Origin: an uncultured Acidobacteriota bacterium
GTDB lineage: Bacteria; Acidobacteriota; Thermoanaerobaculia; Gp7-AA8
Assembly (NCBI GenBank): GCA_937870635.1
Contig: CALMZP010000147.1
Span: forward strand, 62,001-126,000
DNA length: 64,000 nucleotides
Direction: 5' to 3'
The position numbers were made by a program, and so were the translations under genes. Each line of letters opens with the position of its first letter. The stretch's first letter is position 1. Of this stretch, positions 5,068 through 49,576 are shown piece after piece. The notes under the pieces are model-generated. The model worked only from the letters and a program-made list of their open reading frames with translations. It did not search any database and had not been told where the DNA came from.

Positions 5068-5769
5068 ATGACTCCAAATAAGAGATCGCTCTCCCTCGCA
5101 ACCGCCCTCCTGGCGGGCTCGGCCATGGTCGCCGCGCCGCGAGCCGAGGCCACCGTGTCGATTGCGGCCTCGTTCGACGAGAAGGTCGAGAACGCCGCGG
5201 CGATCGTCCACGGCCGCGTCGTGAAGCGGGAATCGCGTTATGACGAGGACAAGCGTTTCATCCTCACCTACACCACCTTCGAGGTGGCCAAGACGTTCAA
5301 GGGCGGCACTCCGAATCTCGTCACTGTGGTTACACCCGGCGGCAAAGTCGGCGACGTGCAGATGACGACCATCGGCGTTCCCCAGTTCCGCGAAGGAAGC
5401 GAGAACGTGGTGTTCCTCAAGAACACGAAGCGCGGCCCCACGGTCCTCTACTTCGATCAGGGCGCCTACGACGTCATCAGCGACCGCGGAGAGAAGATCG
5501 TCCGTCCGGTCGCGACCGATGCCGTGACGATCGATGAACAGCGCGGAATGGCCGTCGCACCCGAACTTCCGCAAACGCTCCGGGAGTTCGAGACGGCGAT
5601 CGGCGTTGCGGAACGCCGCGTGCGTCACAATCGCATGGAGCTGCTCGAGAAGCAGCGTCAGGCTGAAGCGTCATCGATCTGGACGACCCTCGAAGAGAAC
5701 AAGTGGCTCGTCTTCATCGCCCTCCTCGGCGTCGCGCTGGCTTCCGTGAAGTTCCTCCGCCGCGGCTGA
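5068..5769 (+). CDS. Hypothetical exported membrane-anchored protein
   Basis: Function not recognised. Starting from ATG 5068 the protein begins with a signal peptide (MTPNKRSLSLATALLAGSAM, cleavage near APRAEA). It then has a beta-rich domain of about 150 residues (AAAIVHGRVVKRES, TFKGGTPNLVTVVTPGG) and a C-terminal transmembrane helix (WLVFIALLGVALASVKFL) ending in RRG. A GTG at 5056 is an alternative start. The architecture suggests a periplasmic domain tethered by its C-terminus, resembling a sorting-tail protein. The stop overlaps the next start (TGATG), so it is probably cotranscribed with the EAL gene. Confidence 0.7.
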   Translation: MTPNKRSLSLATALLAGSAMVAAPRAEATVSIAASFDEKVENAAAIVHGRVVKRESRYDEDKRFILTYTTFEVAKTFKGGTPNLVTVVTPGGKVGDVQMTTIGVPQFREGSENVVFLKNTKRGPTVLYFDQGAYDVISDRGEKIVRPVATDAVTIDEQRGMAVAPELPQTLREFETAIGVAERRVRHNRMELLEKQRQAEASSIWTTLEENKWLVFIALLGVALASVKFLRRG

Positions 5770-6536
5770 TGAGCGGCGATCGCGTCGCGCGGGAAGCCCT
5801 CGATCGAGCGATGGACGAGAAGGAAGACCTTCTCCTCGTCTACCAGCCCATTCATGACGCGCGCACCCGGAAGATCATCGCTGCCGAAGCGCTCTTGCGG
5901 CAGCGCAGGCAGACGGGCGAGATCCGCGAGGCCTCCATCATTACGAAGACGGCCGAGAAGGGCCCTGAGCTCTTCGAGCTCAACTCGATGACCGTTCGCC
6001 GGGCGTTCGCCGATGCGGCGAAATGGATGAAGAAGCACAGCGACATCCGCCTGCACCTCAACCTCTCGCCGCGCGAGTTCGAAGAGAGGGACATCGTCAA
6101 GCGTCTCAAAGAGCTGGTGTCGGACTGCAGGGCCGACATCGAGTTCGTGAACCTGGAGATCACAGAAACCAGCTACATCAAACGGCCCGAAGAAACGATG
6201 AAGGTCCTCTACGACCTGAAAGGTCTCGGCCTGCAGCTCTGGCTGGACGACTTCGGGACGGGACACTCATCGATCACCCACCTGCAGCACTTCCCTCTCG
6301 ACGGCCTGAAGCTCCCGGGCGATTTCATCGCCGGCGTGCCCCGCGACGGCCGCTGCTCCGCAATCGTCCGCTCGATCATCGCCCTCGCGCACGACCTCGG
6401 GCTCTCAGTCGTCGCGGAAGGTGTCGAGAACGAGGAACAGCTGCAATTCCTCCTCGCGCACAAATGCGATTCGATTCAGGGATTTCTGTTCAGTAAGCCG
6501 ATGCCCGTGGAAGAGTTCTTAGTGCTTGGTGCTTAG
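5769..6536 (+). CDS. Stand-alone EAL-domain c-di-GMP phosphodiesterase
   Basis: Predicted to hydrolyse cyclic di-GMP to pGpG. The 255-aa protein is essentially one EAL domain. Catalytic signature residues are present: EALLR, NLSPREF, LEITET, DDFGTGHSS, LKLP (usually LKID), AEGVE and QGFLFSKP. No sensor or membrane domain is visible. ATG 5769 overlaps the upstream stop. The last residues (LVLGA and stop) are encoded by TGCTTGG-type repeat DNA, so the original C-terminus may have been altered by repeat insertion. Confidence 0.88.
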   Translation: MSGDRVAREALDRAMDEKEDLLLVYQPIHDARTRKIIAAEALLRQRRQTGEIREASIITKTAEKGPELFELNSMTVRRAFADAAKWMKKHSDIRLHLNLSPREFEERDIVKRLKELVSDCRADIEFVNLEITETSYIKRPEETMKVLYDLKGLGLQLWLDDFGTGHSSITHLQHFPLDGLKLPGDFIAGVPRDGRCSAIVRSIIALAHDLGLSVVAEGVENEEQLQFLLAHKCDSIQGFLFSKPMPVEEFLVLGA

Positions 6537-6550
6537 TGCAGCTAAGCACT
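6521..6550. repeat. Short TGCTTGG heptamer hairpin spanning two stop codons
   Basis: AGTGCTTGGTGCTTAG is followed, after TGCAG, by CTAAGCAC. The 8-bp stem GTGCTTAG/CTAAGCAC contains the stop codon of the EAL gene on plus (TAG 6534-6536) and of the acyltransferase gene on minus (6542-6544). It is a minimal version of the larger TGCTTGG arrays seen elsewhere in the window. Confidence 0.8.
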
Positions 6551-7255
6551 CAGCCGCAGCTTCCCCTCTTCGGGCGCGTATTCGTCGCGGCGGCGATCGA
6601 GATCCTTCATCACGCTCTTCTTGAAGTTCTCGGGGCCGCCTTCCCGGAGCCGGTCGGCGATGTAGTCCGCGATCTCCAGATTCTCGATCCGCATCCGCAC
6701 GGTCCTGAAGACGTTCGGGATGTGTCCCGGAACCTGCACGTGATGGAGGCCGCCGCTGTATGCGAGCAGCATCCGCCCCTCTCTCACGGCGTTGAGGATG
6801 TCGGCAATGCCCCCGCGCACGGTCATCGGCTTCCCGTGCAGATCGAGGCCGTTCGCACGCTTCATCCGCCCCTCGGGCGCGATGACGATCATCGACTTGG
6901 GATCGATGCGCTGAAGCACGGCGAACCAGGTCTCATCGCGCTCGCGCGTGATCGGGATGACGTGATGCGCCACGAACTTGAAGACGAGCCCTACCAGCGG
7001 CCTGTCGGTCGTCTTGTCCGCCGCGGGCACGACGCCGTGCGCGGCCAGGCGCCACATGAAACTCGTCGGCACGCCGCCGAGGAAGATGGGCTCGAAGAGA
7101 CTGGTGTGGTTGAGGAAGACGACCAGCCGGAGGTCCTTCCACGGATTGGCAGGGGTCGGCCCGAGAAACGCGAAATCGTGCCGATAGAAGATCTTGCTCA
7201 GGTACTTGAGGAAGACCAGGATGGAGAAAACGAGAAGGCTCCGGAGAAAACCCAC
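6542..7255 (-). CDS. PlsC-like lysophospholipid acyltransferase family protein
   Basis: Probably transfers an acyl chain to a lysophospholipid or related acceptor at the inner membrane. An N-terminal membrane segment (FLRSLLVFSILVFLKYLSKI) is followed by NHTSLFEP (acyltransferase motif I, HX4E rather than the usual HX4D) and APEGRMKR (motif III). The frame is open up to 7387, but a start there would lie inside the DUF72 gene. GTG at 7253-7255 (VGFLRSLL) is therefore chosen, 11 bases after the DUF72 stop. Substrate unknown. Confidence 0.78.
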   Translation of the reverse strand: MGFLRSLLVFSILVFLKYLSKIFYRHDFAFLGPTPANPWKDLRLVVFLNHTSLFEPIFLGGVPTSFMWRLAAHGVVPAADKTTDRPLVGLVFKFVAHHVIPITRERDETWFAVLQRIDPKSMIVIAPEGRMKRANGLDLHGKPMTVRGGIADILNAVREGRMLLAYSGGLHHVQVPGHIPNVFRTVRMRIENLEIADYIADRLREGGPENFKKSVMKDLDRRRDEYAPEEGKLRLSA

Positions 7256-7266
7256 GGCGGCGAATC

Positions 7267-7977
7267 TTACACGAGCCTCAGGGCCTGCTTGAACCGCTCC
7301 GCGAAGACCGGACCCTTCCCCTCGTCCTCGTGTTTGAAAAAGACAAACGCATCCGACCACGACTGAGCGGACACCCGCCGTGCCCACGCCGCGATCCCGT
7401 CCGCTTCATACTCGGTCCTTCTCAGTCGAAGGTACCCCCACGTCGCCGTGGGAACGAGGACGCTGTCGGGGTTTTCCGTCTCGTCGGTGTCTGCAGCGCA
7501 GAGAGCGGCGTCGTGGTCGCGAAGGATCGAATAGATCTCCTCGTCGAACCAGGATGCGTGACGGAATTCGAACGCCGCCCGGTGATGCGGAGGAAGCCGT
7601 TTGACGAAATCCCGCAGCTTCTCTGCATCCTTCCTGGCGAACGGCGGAAGCTGAAACAGCACCGGGCCGAGCTTCGTCCCGAGCACGCTGGCCGTGTCGT
7701 AGAGGTAATGAAGATCGTCGGCGACGTCGGTCAGCTTTTTCTGGTGCGTGATGCGCTGCGGCGCCTTCAGCACGAAGACGAAACCTTCAGGCACTTCCGT
7801 CGCCCACCGTTCCACCGTCCTGGCGTCGGGCATCCGATAGAATGTGTTGTTGATCTCGACCGTGTCGAACCGCCCGGCATAGAACGACAGCATCTTCGCA
7901 GCCGGCAGATCATCGGGGTAGAAGGTGCCCTTCCACTCCTTGTAACTGTAGCCGCTCGTTCCGACGAGCACCCGCAT
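7267..7977 (-). CDS. DUF72 family protein (YecE-like)
   Basis: Conserved TIM-barrel-like protein of the DUF72/YecE family; biochemical role not established. The 236-aa protein shows the family hallmarks VGTSGYSYKEWKGTFYP at the N-terminus, FDTVEINNTFYRMP, FVLKAPQRITH, GPVLFQLPP and AAFEFRHASWF. It lies just upstream of the PlsC-like gene (11-base gap), probably in one transcript. Confidence 0.93.
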   Translation of the reverse strand: MRVLVGTSGYSYKEWKGTFYPDDLPAAKMLSFYAGRFDTVEINNTFYRMPDARTVERWATEVPEGFVFVLKAPQRITHQKKLTDVADDLHYLYDTASVLGTKLGPVLFQLPPFARKDAEKLRDFVKRLPPHHRAAFEFRHASWFDEEIYSILRDHDAALCAADTDETENPDSVLVPTATWGYLRLRRTEYEADGIAAWARRVSAQSWSDAFVFFKHEDEGKGPVFAERFKQALRLV

Positions 7978-28469: not shown

Positions 28470-28478
28470 CGCGTTCGA

Positions 28479-28659
28479 CCGTTAACCGTTAACCGTTACA
28501 GCGAATGAGCGTAATCGACCCCCACGTCATCCTGAGGCGCGAAGACGCCGAAGGACCTCGAGATGCCACGCTTGCGCATTTTGAGGTCCTTCGCCGCGCT
28601 TCGCCGGCTCAGCATGACGTGTTTGCCACCGTCTTCGGTTAACGGTTAACGGTTAACGG
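28479..28659. repeat. Composite repeat: GTTAACC arms around a complete CATCCTGAG palindrome
   Basis: Left arm: CGTTAACCGTTAACCGTTA (28480-28498). Right arm: CGGTTAACGGTTAACGGTTA (28636-28656). Between lies CACGTCATCCTGAGGCGCGA...GAGGTCCTTCGCCGCGCTTC...GGCTCAGCATGACGTG (28522-28622), itself an inverted repeat. The right arm supplies the last codons and stop of the DoxX gene. Confidence 0.92.
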
Positions 28660-29055
28660 AACCCGCGCCGCGTACGCCGGCATCTCCCCCCTCACCTCAG
28701 CAAGCTTCGCCAGCGTGAACGCGCCGCAGGCCATGACGAGATCGCGCACGGCGACGTCGAAGAACTGACCGGTAGTGAGGAGCGAGAGAGCGATGGCGGT
28801 CAGCCATCCGGCCACGACGTAGCCACCGAGCCGGGCCAGTCCGGCGAGGATCGCGATGCCGGCAATCATCTCGATCACTCCGGCAACGCGCATCAGAAGG
28901 CCTGCCGGCAGCGGAATCACGCGAAGGACCAGCGGACTGGCGTACTGCTCCCAGTTCGTCAGCAGATTGAAGAACTTATCGAGCCCGGCCAGGAAAGCGG
29001 TCAGACCGAACGCGATCCGAAGGGTCCAGAATGCGGAATTGAGTCGAGTGTCCAT
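28639..29055 (-). CDS. DoxX-family membrane protein
   Basis: Small polytopic inner-membrane protein of 138 aa with four predicted helices (FWTLRIAFGLTAFLAGLDKF, GLLMRVAGVIEMIAGIAILA, GGYVVAGWLTAIALSLLT, FDVAVRDLVMACGAFTLAKL). GLDKFFNLLTNWEQYASPLV and the GVIEMIAG segment fit DoxX/SURF4-like proteins, linked to redox or thiosulfate oxidation in some species. ATG 29055 has AGGAGGT upstream. Its C-terminus (PLTVNR and stop) is encoded by the GTTAACC array. It is divergent from an ECF sigma gene across 86 bp, suggesting co-regulation. Confidence 0.85.
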   Translation of the reverse strand: MDTRLNSAFWTLRIAFGLTAFLAGLDKFFNLLTNWEQYASPLVLRVIPLPAGLLMRVAGVIEMIAGIAILAGLARLGGYVVAGWLTAIALSLLTTGQFFDVAVRDLVMACGAFTLAKLAEVRGEMPAYAARVPLTVNR

Positions 29056-29141
29056 GGGTGTTACCTCCTGCATGATTGGATGGCACCGCATGGATTTCGT
29101 GACACTGTCACCTTTTCCGGCGAACCGCATCCAATGAGCAA

Positions 29142-31029: not shown

Positions 31030-31036
31030 CTCGTTT

Positions 31037-31138
31037 GTCCTGGTGTCAGGTCTGGAAAAACAACTTTTCTTACAAAACCGGTCTCAGTTCAGGCCACTTT
31101 TGGAAGAAAAGTTGTTTTTCCAGACCTGACACCAGGAC
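31037..31138. repeat. Perfect 35-bp inverted repeat
   Basis: The left arm 31037-31071 begins GTCCTGGTGTCAGGTCTGG and continues through AAAAACAACTTTTCTT. The right arm 31104-31138 is its exact reverse complement. The loop is 32 bases. It lies between the two ALDH genes and could form a very stable RNA hairpin splitting the operon. Confidence 0.95.
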
Positions 31139-31149
31139 ACCTTCCTCGT

Positions 31150-33628: not shown

Positions 33629-33740
33629 TTTGAGGGTCACGTCTGCACTTCGCACTTTCTCCACGAACGGTAGATCCAGAAGGACTCACCGCGATCTACT
33701 GTTCGTGGAGAAAGTGCGAAGTGCAGACGTGACCCTCAAA
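33629..33740. repeat. Near-perfect 48-bp inverted repeat upstream of deoC
   Basis: The left arm 33629-33676 begins TTTGAGGGTCACGTCTGCAC; the right arm 33693-33740 ends GTGCAGACGTGACCCTCAAA. They match at 47 of 48 positions around a 16-base loop. It occupies the whole gap between the kelch gene stop and the deoC start, so it must overlap either the deoC promoter or the kelch terminator. Confidence 0.95.
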
Positions 33741-35811: not shown

Positions 35812-35895
35812 CCGACCTTCGACCTTCGACCTTCGACCTTCGGAGACGAAGCGCAGCTCCGAAGGTCGAAGGTCGAGGGTCGAAGGTCGAAGGTC
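35812..35895. repeat. Heptamer inverted repeat, unit GACCTTC
   Basis: CCGACCTTCGACCTTCGACC (four units) then CTTCGGAG; loop ACGAAGCGCAG; then CTCCGAAGGTCGAAGGTCGA with further units to 35895. The last unit carries the stop codon of the downstream NHLP-like gene. Confidence 0.93.
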
Positions 35896-36121
35896 AGGAC
35901 TTCGGATTCACCCCGTACTGCTCGGCGATCGTGACGAGCTTCTGCTCGACATCACCCTCGCCGAGAGACGTGCGGATTCGCTCGATCTCGGCCATTTCGG
36001 CGTCTTCGAGCGCAAAACCATGGTCACCAAGCGCGCCCTGGGGATTCTCGACCAGGCGGCGGCGAAACTCGGGATGTTCGATCGCGCGCCTGACTACGGC
36101 ACCGATCATCTCGTTGCGCAT
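35894..36121 (-). CDS. Small NHLP-clan (Os1348/nitrile hydratase leader-like) protein
   Basis: The 75-aa protein (MRNEMIGAVVRRAIEHPEFR, RLVENPQGALGDHGFALEDA, EMAEIERIR...) has the leader-like pattern of NHLP/Os1348 proteins seen in RiPP systems. The C-terminal 25 residues (LGEGDVEQKLVTIAEQYGVN) contain no Cys, Ser/Thr-rich or Gly-rich core, and no maturation enzyme is adjacent. It is thus probably a stand-alone relative rather than a working precursor. AGGAGG precedes ATG 36121. Confidence 0.65.
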   Translation of the reverse strand: MRNEMIGAVVRRAIEHPEFRRRLVENPQGALGDHGFALEDAEMAEIERIRTSLGEGDVEQKLVTIAEQYGVNPKS

Positions 36122-37476: not shown

Positions 37477-37494
37477 GCGAGAAATTGTAGCTTG

Positions 37495-37556
37495 AGTGCT
37501 GGTGCTTGGTGCTTGGTGCTTGGTGCTGCGGGAATCGCGTTCAAGCACCAAGCACT
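37495..37556. repeat. Heptamer inverted repeat, unit TGCTTGG
   Basis: AGTGCTGGTGCTTGGTGCTT and two further units, loop GCGGGAATCGCGTTC, then AAGCACCAAGCACT. The right arm ends in the stop codon of the AI-2E gene. Confidence 0.9.
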
Positions 37557-38613
37557 AATCAACCCGGCGAAGCAGCGTCCCGGCCCGGCCCGCATCCTGG
37601 CGGCGCTCGCGGCGGGAGACGAAGACTTCCTCGAAGGTCACCTGGATGATCGCCGCCACGGGAATGGCGATCACCGCGCCGATGAAGCCGAGGAGCGAGG
37701 CGCCCATCATGAAGGCGATGAAGACGGCGAGCGGCGAGATCGAGACCTTGCTCGACATCACGCGGGGCACGACGATGTAGTTCTCGAACTTCTGAAGCAG
37801 GAAGTAGAAGACCAGCACGGCCCAGAACTGCCACTTCGAATGCAGGATCGCCACGGCGAGCGCGGGAATCGAGCTGACGATCGGTCCGATGACGGGGATG
37901 ACCTCGCCGAACGCGGCGAGTATGGCCAGCGGAAGTGCGTAGGGGATGCCGAGGATGGCCAGGCCGGCGAACGTGAAAATGCCGATGATGGCTGCCAGCA
38001 GCAGCTGCGCCGAGAGCCAGGAGCTCATGCGATGGCCCATGCGGATCAGCGTCCGCAGACGGTCGCCCCGCACTTCGGCGGGATAGACGAGCAGGATCAG
38101 ATTTCGAAGACGCGGCGCGTCGATGAGCATGTACGCAACCATGAAGAGAATCGCGAAGACCGCGCCGATCGCCGTCGCCGCACTGCGCATGTAGCGGAAC
38201 ACGCTCCCCTCCGGCAGATCGACACCGCCGCGCAGCGCTTCCCGCACCGCACCCATCGGGACGTAACGTTCGAGCGGCTGGACGATGTTCGCTTCGATGA
38301 GCGCCGGAAGGTGCGTGCTCAACTGGCGCCAGTCGGAGACGACCCTCGGAACGAGGAAAACGCCGACGGTGATCACGATCAGCAGGAAGGGCAGATAGAC
38401 GATCATCACCGCCGTTCCGCGCGGCATACGCCTCTTGAACCAGAACCGCCACACGACGCGCACACGGCGGACAGCGGGAGCGATCCCCGCCGCCAGTACC
38501 GCCGCGATGAATACGAGCACGAGAATGTCGCGTACCAGCCAGAGGATCAGAAGGATGATCGCCGCGGCGGCGATGATCGCGACCTTTCTGGCGAAGAGGT
38601 CGAGCTCTCTCAC
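37555..38613 (-). CDS. AI-2E/PerM family membrane transporter (second copy)
   Basis: The 352-aa polytopic protein is similar in layout to that at 23004-24161 (VAIIAAAAIILLILWLVRD, LVLVFIAAVLAAGIAPAV at the N-terminus; LLLAAIIGIFTFAGLAILGI, FGEVIPVIGPIVSSIPALAV and SPLAVFIAFMMGASLLGFIG later). Its GTG start overlaps the thioredoxin stop (GTGA), showing translational coupling. Substrate unknown; linkage to thioredoxin is unusual for the family. Confidence 0.9.
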   Translation of the reverse strand: MRELDLFARKVAIIAAAAIILLILWLVRDILVLVFIAAVLAAGIAPAVRRVRVVWRFWFKRRMPRGTAVMIVYLPFLLIVITVGVFLVPRVVSDWRQLSTHLPALIEANIVQPLERYVPMGAVREALRGGVDLPEGSVFRYMRSAATAIGAVFAILFMVAYMLIDAPRLRNLILLVYPAEVRGDRLRTLIRMGHRMSSWLSAQLLLAAIIGIFTFAGLAILGIPYALPLAILAAFGEVIPVIGPIVSSIPALAVAILHSKWQFWAVLVFYFLLQKFENYIVVPRVMSSKVSISPLAVFIAFMMGASLLGFIGAVIAIPVAAIIQVTFEEVFVSRRERRQDAGRAGTLLRRVD

Positions 38614-39089: not shown

Positions 39090-39863
39090 GTGGTGATTCG
39101 AGACGCTTCCCCTTCCGACCTCCCACTAATTCGGGAAATCCTGACCTCGGCGAACGACGCCCCTTACGACATCGCTCCCGTCCTCGAAGAGAAGTGTTTC
39201 GGCCCCGGAGCCTCGGGGCCGCCGCGGGTGAGGCTCTACGAAGCGGCGGGGATCGCTGTGTCGTGCGGTCGATACCTCCGCCTTCTCGCCGTCCTCCCCG
39301 AGCGTCGAGGAGAAGGAATCGGGACGGCCCTCCTGCGGGACTCCGGCCCGGCGATCATCGGCGCTGAACCGGGAAACTACTTTCTGCCCGGCGTCACGGA
39401 ACGCGCCGCCGGATTCTTCACCAGGCGGGGGTATCTCGAAACTGGCGCAACGTGGAATCTGCACGCGGATCTGTGGAGCGCGGGCGACCTCGCCCGCGCC
39501 CCCCGTCCGGACCTCGAAACCCCGATCGACGCCTCATTCCTCGACTTCGTACGCCGCGAGTTCGGCAACGCGTGGGCATTCGAGGTCTCGAAGGCCGCAG
39601 CGGGGTTCTACATCCCGGACGTCGCTTTCGCGGTCATCGAAGCGAACAACCGCGGACTGGGATCCTTCGGCCCGACAGGCGTGGCCAAAGCCCATCGTGG
39701 GAAGGGCCACGGCCGCACGCTCCTTCGGGCGGCGCTCGCCGCACTGGCCCGGCGCGGTTACACGCGGGGCATCATTCCGTGGACGGACGCACTGGACTTT
39801 TACCGCCGCAGTTGTGGCGCAGAACCGGCACACCGGTTCGTGACGTTGAAGGTCAGCCGTTAA
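39090..39863 (+). CDS. Tandem GNAT acetyltransferase
   Basis: Two GNAT domains in one chain. The first (about 1-130) has LPERRGEGIGTALL at the acetyl-CoA loop. The second (about 150-257) has AKAHRGKGHGRTLLRAALAA and LDFYRRSCGAEPAHR. The linker SAGDLARAP is encoded by a family A palindrome (39473-39500). GTG at 39090 is preferred; an upstream frame reaches 38919 but overlaps the thioredoxin gene. The C-terminal VSR and TAA stop come from the start of the GTTAACC array. Acceptor substrate unknown. Confidence 0.8.
   Translation: MVIRDASPSDLPLIREILTSANDAPYDIAPVLEEKCFGPGASGPPRVRLYEAAGIAVSCGRYLRLLAVLPERRGEGIGTALLRDSGPAIIGAEPGNYFLPGVTERAAGFFTRRGYLETGATWNLHADLWSAGDLARAPRPDLETPIDASFLDFVRREFGNAWAFEVSKAAAGFYIPDVAFAVIEANNRGLGSFGPTGVAKAHRGKGHGRTLLRAALAALARRGYTRGIIPWTDALDFYRRSCGAEPAHRFVTLKVSR
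39473..39500. repeat. Family A palindrome inside a coding region
   Basis: GTGGAGCGCGGGCGACCTCG and CCCGCGCC: a degenerate copy of the intergenic GGAGCCGCGGGCGATCTCGC repeat. It encodes the WSAGDLARAP linker of the GNAT protein without breaking the frame. Confidence 0.75.
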
Positions 39864-40142
39864 CCGTTAACCGTTAACCGTTAACCGTTAACCGTTAACC
39901 GTTAACCGTTAACCGTTAACCGTTAACCGTTAACCGTCAAGAAGCGTAATCCGTGGGTCTGTTTCGTCAAGGCTCGATGGAGCCGCGGGCGATCTCGCCC
40001 GCGGGGTGGGGGGGGAAACCGACCTGGCGGGCGGGATCGCCCGCGGCTCCACTGCTAACCCGAAGCCCACGGTTAACGGTTAACGGTTAACGGTTAACGG
40101 TGAACGGTTAACGGTCAACGGTTAACGGTCAACGGTTAACGG
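39858..40142. repeat. Composite repeat: GTTAACC arrays around a family A palindrome
   Basis: The left array 39858-39938 contains about eleven near-identical CGTTAAC units; the right array 40069-40142 contains about ten CGGTTAA-type units in reverse orientation, with GTGAACG and GTCAACG variants. Between them (39978-40051) is GGAGCCGCGGGCGATCTCGC...GATCGCCCGCGGCTCC. The whole gap between the GNAT and PAP2 genes is repeat. Confidence 0.96.
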
Positions 40143-40173
40143 ATCAAGGCAACGTTCGATACACTTCGCGCCC

Positions 40174-44652: not shown

Positions 44653-44839
44653 GTGCTTGGTGCTTGGGCTTGGTGCTTGGTGCCGGGACCGCGCCCGCCA
44701 CGTCACCCTGAGCCGCGAAGACGGCGAAGGGCCTCAAACTACGTACGTCGCATCCTGAGGTCCTTCGTCTTCTTCTCAGGATGACGTGACCGCGATCCTC
44801 GCCTCAGGGCGATTCGCCCAGCACCCAGCACCAAGCCCT
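44651..44839. repeat. Composite repeat: TGCTTGG arms around a CACCCTGAG palindrome
   Basis: Left arm AAGTGCTTGGTGCTTGGGCT, then TGGTGCTTGGTGCC. Inner palindrome CGTCACCCTGAGCCGCGAAG...CTTCTCAGGATGACGTG (44701-44788). Right arm CAGCACCCAGCACCAAGCCC at 44819. Begins at the kgd stop codon. Confidence 0.9.
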
Positions 44840-48440: not shown

Positions 48441-48533
48441 ATCCTGAGCGAAGCGAAGGATCTTCGGTGCACCTGCGACGGTCGTGGCTGGATCTTCGTT
48501 CGTGCACCGGAGATCCTTCGCTTCGCTCAGGAT
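48441..48533. repeat. 32-bp near-perfect inverted repeat, ATCCTGAGCGAAGCGAAGGAT module
   Basis: Left arm 48441-48472 ATCCTGAGCGAAGCGAAGGA...GTGCAC; right arm 48502-48533 is its reverse complement with one mismatch. Loop of 29 bases. Lies between the convergent metallopeptidase and agmatinase genes and supplies the agmatinase stop codon. Confidence 0.93.
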
Positions 48534-49576
48534 AGACTTTTGAGCGCGAACCCGATCATTTTGTACAAGAGTCGCGCGCCGACGTTTGCGTCCCACTCCG
48601 TCTCGCCCGGCGAGACTTCGCATAGATCGAGACCGACGATCTTTTTCCCCGACCGTACGATCGCGCGCAGAAGGCCGATCGCCTCGTTCCACGACAGCCC
48701 GCCGGGAACCGGCGTGCCTGTTCCGGGGCAGAGCGTCGGATCGAGGCCATCGATGTCCCACGACAGATAGACCGTCGCCGGCAGCGCAGCCACGATCGAA
48801 TCGGCGATCGACGCGAACGACTCTCCGCGATCTTTCCGCAGTGCGACGTCGGCATCGAAGAACGTCTCGATGCGTCCGCGCGAACCGGCGATCATCTGGC
48901 TCTCCGCGTGGCCGAGATCGCGTACGCCCACCTGCACGAGCTTCCCGACCTTCGGCAGGCGTGTCATGACGTTGTGAAAGATCGAAGCATGCGACCACGT
49001 GAAGCCTTCATATGCGTCGCGAAGATCGGCGTGAGCATCGAGATGCAGGATGCCGAGGCCGGGATAGCGTTCTGAGTAGGCGCGGATCGCGCCGAACGGG
49101 ACAGAATGATCGCCGCCCAGGACGACCGCCATCTTGTCCTGATTGAGAAGGTCGATGGTCTGCTCGTAGACCCACTCATTCACCTTCTCGCCGATCCTGT
49201 TGACCTTCTCCGCGGCGGCACGAGTCTTCCGATCGACGGCGCCCCCTTCTCTGATCACCGGCGCCGCAATCGCTTTCGCCTCACGATTCCACGCGATGAC
49301 TTTGCGGGGAATGTCGAGCATGGCGATTCCCAGCTCGTAGGGACGGCCCGTCTCATGATCGTAAAGATCGACCTGGCGTGACGCTTCGAGCACCGCCTTC
49401 GGCCCTCGCGAGGTGCCGCCGCCATACGACGTCGTCGCCTCGAACGGGACGGGAATGACGATGACTCCGGCGTCGTCCGCCGTGAACGGGAGGCCGTAGA
49501 TGCCGTCGCCGGTCGCGGGAGCATCCGGGTCGAACGCCGGAGCGGCAGCAGCAGAGGGTTTCTTCGGCTTTGGCAC
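48527..49576 (-). CDS. speB: Agmatinase/arginase (ureohydrolase) family enzyme
   Basis: Manganese ureohydrolase of 349 aa: GGDHSVPFG, LHLDAHADLRD, SHASIFHN and SWDIDGLDP carry the metal-binding His and Asp residues, and the C-terminal EVSPGETEWDANVGA is family-typical. The N-terminus has a 25-residue low-complexity extension. The GTG start overlaps the stop of the upstream zinc-ribbon gene (TAGTG). Agmatine is the likely substrate, but formiminoglutamate or guanidino-acids are possible. Confidence 0.9.
   Translation of the reverse strand: MPKPKKPSAAAAPAFDPDAPATGDGIYGLPFTADDAGVIVIPVPFEATTSYGGGTSRGPKAVLEASRQVDLYDHETGRPYELGIAMLDIPRKVIAWNREAKAIAAPVIREGGAVDRKTRAAAEKVNRIGEKVNEWVYEQTIDLLNQDKMAVVLGGDHSVPFGAIRAYSERYPGLGILHLDAHADLRDAYEGFTWSHASIFHNVMTRLPKVGKLVQVGVRDLGHAESQMIAGSRGRIETFFDADVALRKDRGESFASIADSIVAALPATVYLSWDIDGLDPTLCPGTGTPVPGGLSWNEAIGLLRAIVRSGKKIVGLDLCEVSPGETEWDANVGARLLYKMIGFALKSLS

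Follow-up and report, generated by a model that had tools for sequence, protein, structure and literature searches.

Dispersed, REP-like palindromes in whose arms one of about 30 heptamers is repeated in tandem appear to have entered the 3' ends of genes in this draft genome, a reading to which we assign a probability of roughly 0.6. Counted in its favor are the exclusivity of period 7 among the arrays, their inverted partners, the match between paired arms, the dependence of density on gap type, the bias toward stops in co-directional gaps, the three-frame pattern of the CCGTTAA arrays and comparisons with empty sites in relatives. Counted against it are the absence of target-site duplication, an excess at convergent stops that depends on the null model, the weakness of the Y1 transposase matches, and the presence of unrelated heptamers at one orthologous junction in several genera.

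A census of 830.6 kb of the genome, in which a hexamer model called 741 genes (88% coding), revealed 183 tandem period-7 arrays, whereas the remaining periods between 4 and 12 yielded five in total. The period-7 arrays, 175 of which are mostly intergenic, fall into 32 unit classes, including GGATTTT, GTTAACC, CATTCAA, GGACCTT and GTGCTTG. An inverted partner was detected within 400 nt for 158 of the 183 (86%), compared with one of 183 random places. In elements with mixed units, agreement between the two arms of one element was 0.97, as against 0.89 with other elements of the same class (P = 0.002); because arms match better within their own element, these data suggest that the arms are copied from, or constrained by, one another. 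Direct repeats flanking the elements were not above those of swapped flanks: neither target-site duplication nor the fixed-length duplication typical of MITEs was detected by this comparison, and insertion generating such duplications was rejected. Three Y1_Tnp (Y1 transposase) matches in the genome are weak (36–39 bits). The 7-nt tandem units are those of heptameric simple sequence repeats; the confinement of such repeats to one or a few units and their lack of an inverted partner were not found here. The longest GTGCTTG array seen in this genome (C109:77023-77099) has about 11 uninterrupted units and is a candidate for length variation. The GTGCTTGG heptamer array also occurs in Pirellulaceae, Hymenobacter, Verrucomicrobia, Streptomyces and others (L031–L110), mostly without an inverted partner, which accompanies the GTGCTTG array in only 16 of 99 cases in other phyla.

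Within the window, the whole 64-kb stretch of DNA that was analyzed, a 32-nt repeat of sequence TTAGTGCTTGGTGCTTAGTGCAGCTAAGCACT occupies positions 6519–6550 between a convergent EAL-domain gene (5769–6536, + strand; a longer open reading frame begins at 5703) and an acyltransferase gene (6542–7387, − strand). It forms a GTGCTTRG-type heptamer hairpin that folds at −17.3 kcal/mol and contains both stop codons. The EAL gene ends L-V-L-G-A-TAG, with its stop at 6534–6536, and the oppositely oriented acyltransferase ends R-L-S-A-TAG, with its stop at 6542–6544, leaving 5 bp between them; the proposal of the initial annotation that the repeat supplies both stops and the last residues was confirmed, the repeat-derived ends being LVLGA-stop and SA-stop. 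Because the pattern GTGCTTRGTGCTTRGTGC has 99 matches in the 4.52-Mb genome and its reversed control none, this small, degenerate copy is a member of a genuine dispersed family.

The EAL–acyltransferase pair is conserved, and in four relatives (G001, G007, G014 and G017) the tails of the two genes overlap by 27–86 bp and no repeat is present. The EAL tails of these relatives read ..EEFVTLLSSHP.., ..EKFVGLLTQSS.., ..DEFQAVLRSGSS.. or ..EQLGDVLQSL-stop, compared with EEFLVLGA-stop here, and the acyltransferase of G007 ends GKLRKIA-stop where that of the window ends GKLRLSA-stop. Since the four relatives overlap tail to tail without the repeat, both tails were replaced here: the EAL tail, after ..PMPVEEF, was exchanged and shortened, and the acyltransferase tail was rewritten from KIA-stop to LSA-stop with its length unchanged. 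At the same junction G010 carries about six tandem copies of a different hairpin unit of roughly 80 bp, built from GGTTGCT heptamers (L184); the gap measures 603 bp in G015 and 734 bp in G008.

The initial annotation extended this pattern to six further genes, whose stops do lie where it placed them (DoxX, 28639; GNAT, 39863; AI-2E, 37555; NHLP-like, 35894; agmatinase, 48527; kgd, 44652). Comparison with relatives, all from other genera and with the nearest genomes at family level, divides these genes into two groups. Repeat-derived last residues and stops were found, as for the EAL and acyltransferase genes, in DoxX, GNAT and the agmatinase. A CCGTTAA hairpin (5' arm 28478–28498, + strand; 3' arm 28636–28659, − strand), with a CACGTCATCCTGAG.. 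REP-like palindrome in its loop, gives the DoxX gene (28639–29073) its LTVNR-stop, about five repeat-derived residues, and a CCGTTAA array of 11.6 copies (39857–39937, + strand), whose inverted partner arm at 40069–40149 (− strand) is 93% complementary, provides about the last residue of the GNAT gene (39090–39863) together with its TAA. The agmatinase gene (48527–49576, − strand) takes its stop and last residues, with length unchanged, from ATCCTGAGCGAAGCGAAGGAT (48441–48533), a REP-like palindrome that is not heptameric, so that its citation as an example of the repeat was mistaken.

In the second group the stop is ancestral. The NHLP-like gene (35894–36121, − strand), with a CGACCTT/AAGGTCG hairpin at its 3' end (35813–35895), differs from its relatives by 0 to +2 residues; the AI-2E gene (37555–38613, − strand), with a GTGCTTG hairpin at its 3' end (37490–37560), ends at the same position in 8 of 10 relatives, and the tail of G002, RAGTLLRRVD-stop, is near-identical; and most relatives of kgd end within one or two residues of it. 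A GTGCTTG-armed hairpin enclosing a REP-like palindrome (44653–44836) lies right behind the kgd stop. The AI-2E stop had been assigned to a TGCTTGG unit and the kgd stop to the first bases of its array; both prove to lie immediately outside the arrays and are not donated by them. Several heptamer hairpins with differing arm units carry the REP-like palindrome CACGTCATCCTGAG..TGACGTG in their loops (28522–28625, 44698–44790 and others), an arrangement suggesting that one element type was inserted into another. Two long, near-perfect, non-heptamer inverted repeats also occupy gene gaps in the window (33629–33740, 48-nt arms, 98%; 31036–31139, 49-nt arms, 92%).

Across the census, the outcome for the C-terminus depends on the extent to which array and gene overlap. 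Where the array covers at least 4 nt ahead of the stop, the protein usually ends in replaced or additional residues, with none to seven extra: C32:145761 ends AAAVNR-stop as against AA-stop in two relatives, C32:143953 is seven residues longer than two relatives, C31:126313 and C32:150139 are longer by one or two, and DoxX, with its added LTVNR-stop, belongs here as well. No net change in length accompanies such coverage at C11:26 and in the acyltransferase, and tails are mixed at C53:24092, C32:89365 and C31:110026. Where the array merely touches the stop, orthologues mostly share the final residue (C31:21641, 7/7 relatives; C31:59731, 4/4; C147:35056, 5/5; C53:44338, 2/2; C11:12407, 3/3; C147:33924, all six loci, some of them duplicates), a group that also includes kgd, AI-2E and the NHLP-like gene, and tails vary at C31:55845, C147:115221, C147:61898 and C12:18721. 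The idea that arrays replace the C-terminus everywhere was rejected: under the refuting condition set by the initial annotation, orthologues ending at the same residue and stop, it fails for kgd, AI-2E and the NHLP-like gene in the window and for six genes outside it.

The placement of the elements is biased with respect to genes. Elements were found at 30 of 113 convergent, 69 of 505 co-directional and 13 of 115 divergent junctions (convergent versus the rest, Fisher P = 0.0006), and array density per intergenic kilobase was 2.62, 2.10 and 0.87, respectively. Array edges are concentrated between −2 and +7 nt relative to stops, with no comparable peak at starts; among the 741 stops, 29 are overlapped by arrays and 67 lie within 10 nt of one, compared with 7 and 15 starts. 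In co-directional gaps, the upstream stop is the closer gene end for 53 of 68 elements and the downstream start for 15 (P = 4e-6), and where at least 40 nt are to spare the median distance is 15 nt to the stop versus 71 nt to the start. Elements at stops in these gaps number 29 versus 16.3 expected under a null without gene invasion. In convergent gaps the result depends on the null: 25 observed versus 16.6 expected at 7 nt and 25 versus 25.7 at 0 nt, a strong excess if elements may invade genes and none if they are confined to the gap. Outright overlap of stops is not above a uniform-placement null allowing 20 nt of gene invasion. The suggestion that insertion is directed to gene ends thus finds moderate support in co-directional gaps and, at convergent stops, only under a null that invades genes, and none in stop overlap; that insertion is tolerated only there is contradicted by the divergent gaps and by eight arrays located off gene junctions.

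The scarcity of elements in divergent gaps and close to starts, the lack of excess stop overlap under the gene-invading null and the fact that C-terminal tails differ among relatives anyway would all follow from neutral insertion anywhere, with selection clearing genes, promoters and ribosome-binding sites so that functionless hairpins are left at 3' ends. We consider this a possible but less favored account, as co-directional elements with room to spare still keep to the stop, the arms co-vary, and element-bearing convergent gaps contain less sequence outside the element (median 9 nt versus 91 nt in element-less gaps, P = 0.04; gaps with at most 15 nt spare, with versus without element, Fisher P = 0.008), the reverse of what length-random insertion would give. 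Strong hairpins at convergent ends recall canonical bidirectional intrinsic terminators built from repeats; a T-tract follows 5 of 67 hairpins and 12 of 339 random intergenic places, no clear excess, and this highly improbable explanation was rejected.

Insertion directed at stop codons, through targeting of translation ends or of the stop sequence, for instance by pairing between stop codon and repeat unit, would account for the edge peak, for GGATTTT-type arrays that repeatedly start at TGA with a shared GA, and for other heptamers at the same stops in relatives. We regard it as unlikely, given that many convergent elements with spare room lie 30–60 nt away from stops and that arrays are present in divergent gaps too. 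The orthologous junctions bear on this point. On the 3' side of the agmatinase stop, CATTCAA arms are found in G002, GACCGCA arms in G016, other heptamer-like repeats in G003 and G012, and REP-like palindromes here and in G010; heptamer-type repeats with differing units thus occupy this junction in at least four relatives, while most orthologous stops have none. At C19:3027, C12:19078 and C32:129606 the genes overlap in some relatives (−24 to −137 bp), and the first two junctions carry other palindromes in some relatives. The case for orthologous junctions as strict hotspots is weak. Simple copying does not account for the unrelated heptamers that occupy a given orthologous junction in different genera. 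A more speculative and rather improbable extension is that a dedicated process in this family, locked to unit length, writes heptamer palindromes at gene ends, with different heptamers arising independently at the same junction across genera and length 7 kept partly because a stop in every frame within 21 nt protects invaded genes.

Several features have precedents. GTAG- and CGTC-superfamily REPs occur where neighboring genes are unidirectional or convergent, less than 20 bp from 3' ends, and GTAG REPs often supply a TAG stop (PMC3733652). The heptamer elements resemble them in being palindromic, intergenic and biased toward 3' ends. In contrast, REPs are palindromes of 20–40 nt with one fixed sequence per family (PMC3733652), whereas the arms here consist of tandem heptamers that fall into 32 unit classes, and several elements, unlike REPs, enclose a REP-like palindrome in their loop; a conserved 20–40-nt palindrome with a GTAG or CGTC tag was not found in the heptamer arms, and only the inner loop palindromes are REP-like. 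The GGGNATC repeats of Xanthomonas and Nostoc are intergenic tandem 7-mers lying mostly less than 50 bp from stop codons on the coding strand, some overlapping them (PMC4692102), as tandem 7-mers lie at and over stops here; they are a single G-rich family studied for G-quadruplex formation, and the available part of the source does not report them as inverted-arm pairs or as many units. Enterobacterial RU-1 elements, small mobile sequences, can eliminate a gene's normal stop and alter its C-terminus when they insert at the 3' end (PMC2759123), similar to the repeat-derived C-termini described here, although RU-1 is longer (127 bp), adds tens of residues and has no heptamer arrays. The TAACTGA repeats of Beggiatoaceae (PMC4679880) are likewise heptamers dispersed in intergenic DNA, but consist of one unit, lie 5' of start codons and are direct, whereas the elements here are inverted. 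A literature search with subscription journals largely outside its reach found no description of heptamer-armed inverted repeats. Stop donation and 3'-end placement are thus already known for REPs; the heptamer-only, many-unit, inverted-arm build is new.

In the preferred reading of dispersed, heptamer-armed palindromes, elements enter short spaces at gene 3' ends, as comparison with relatives lacking them shows. Their distribution shows that survival is highest between convergent and co-directional genes and lowest close to promoters. They are probably transcribed, forming hairpins at the mRNA 3' end that would shield or delimit the message. An element that lands in the last codons would make translation stop at whichever array stop first comes in frame. 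Since 7 is not divisible by 3, a heptamer with a stop word shows a stop in all three frames within 21 nt, and its insertion would therefore trim or extend the protein by only a few residues, as observed for several genes and probably in general. CCGTTAA arrays overlap stops at −6, −6, −6, −8, −13 and −20, mostly one, two or three units deep, depths consistent with an insert beginning CCGTTAA and read in its three frames. An element landing just behind the stop leaves the protein unchanged, as comparison with orthologues shows. The same gene ends with and without the hairpin in sister genera constitute a clean natural experiment, one that bears on the reshaping of protein C-termini by dispersed repeats and on the way these repeats pull apart convergent genes that overlap, and that raises a sharp question: why period 7 only, and through what process.
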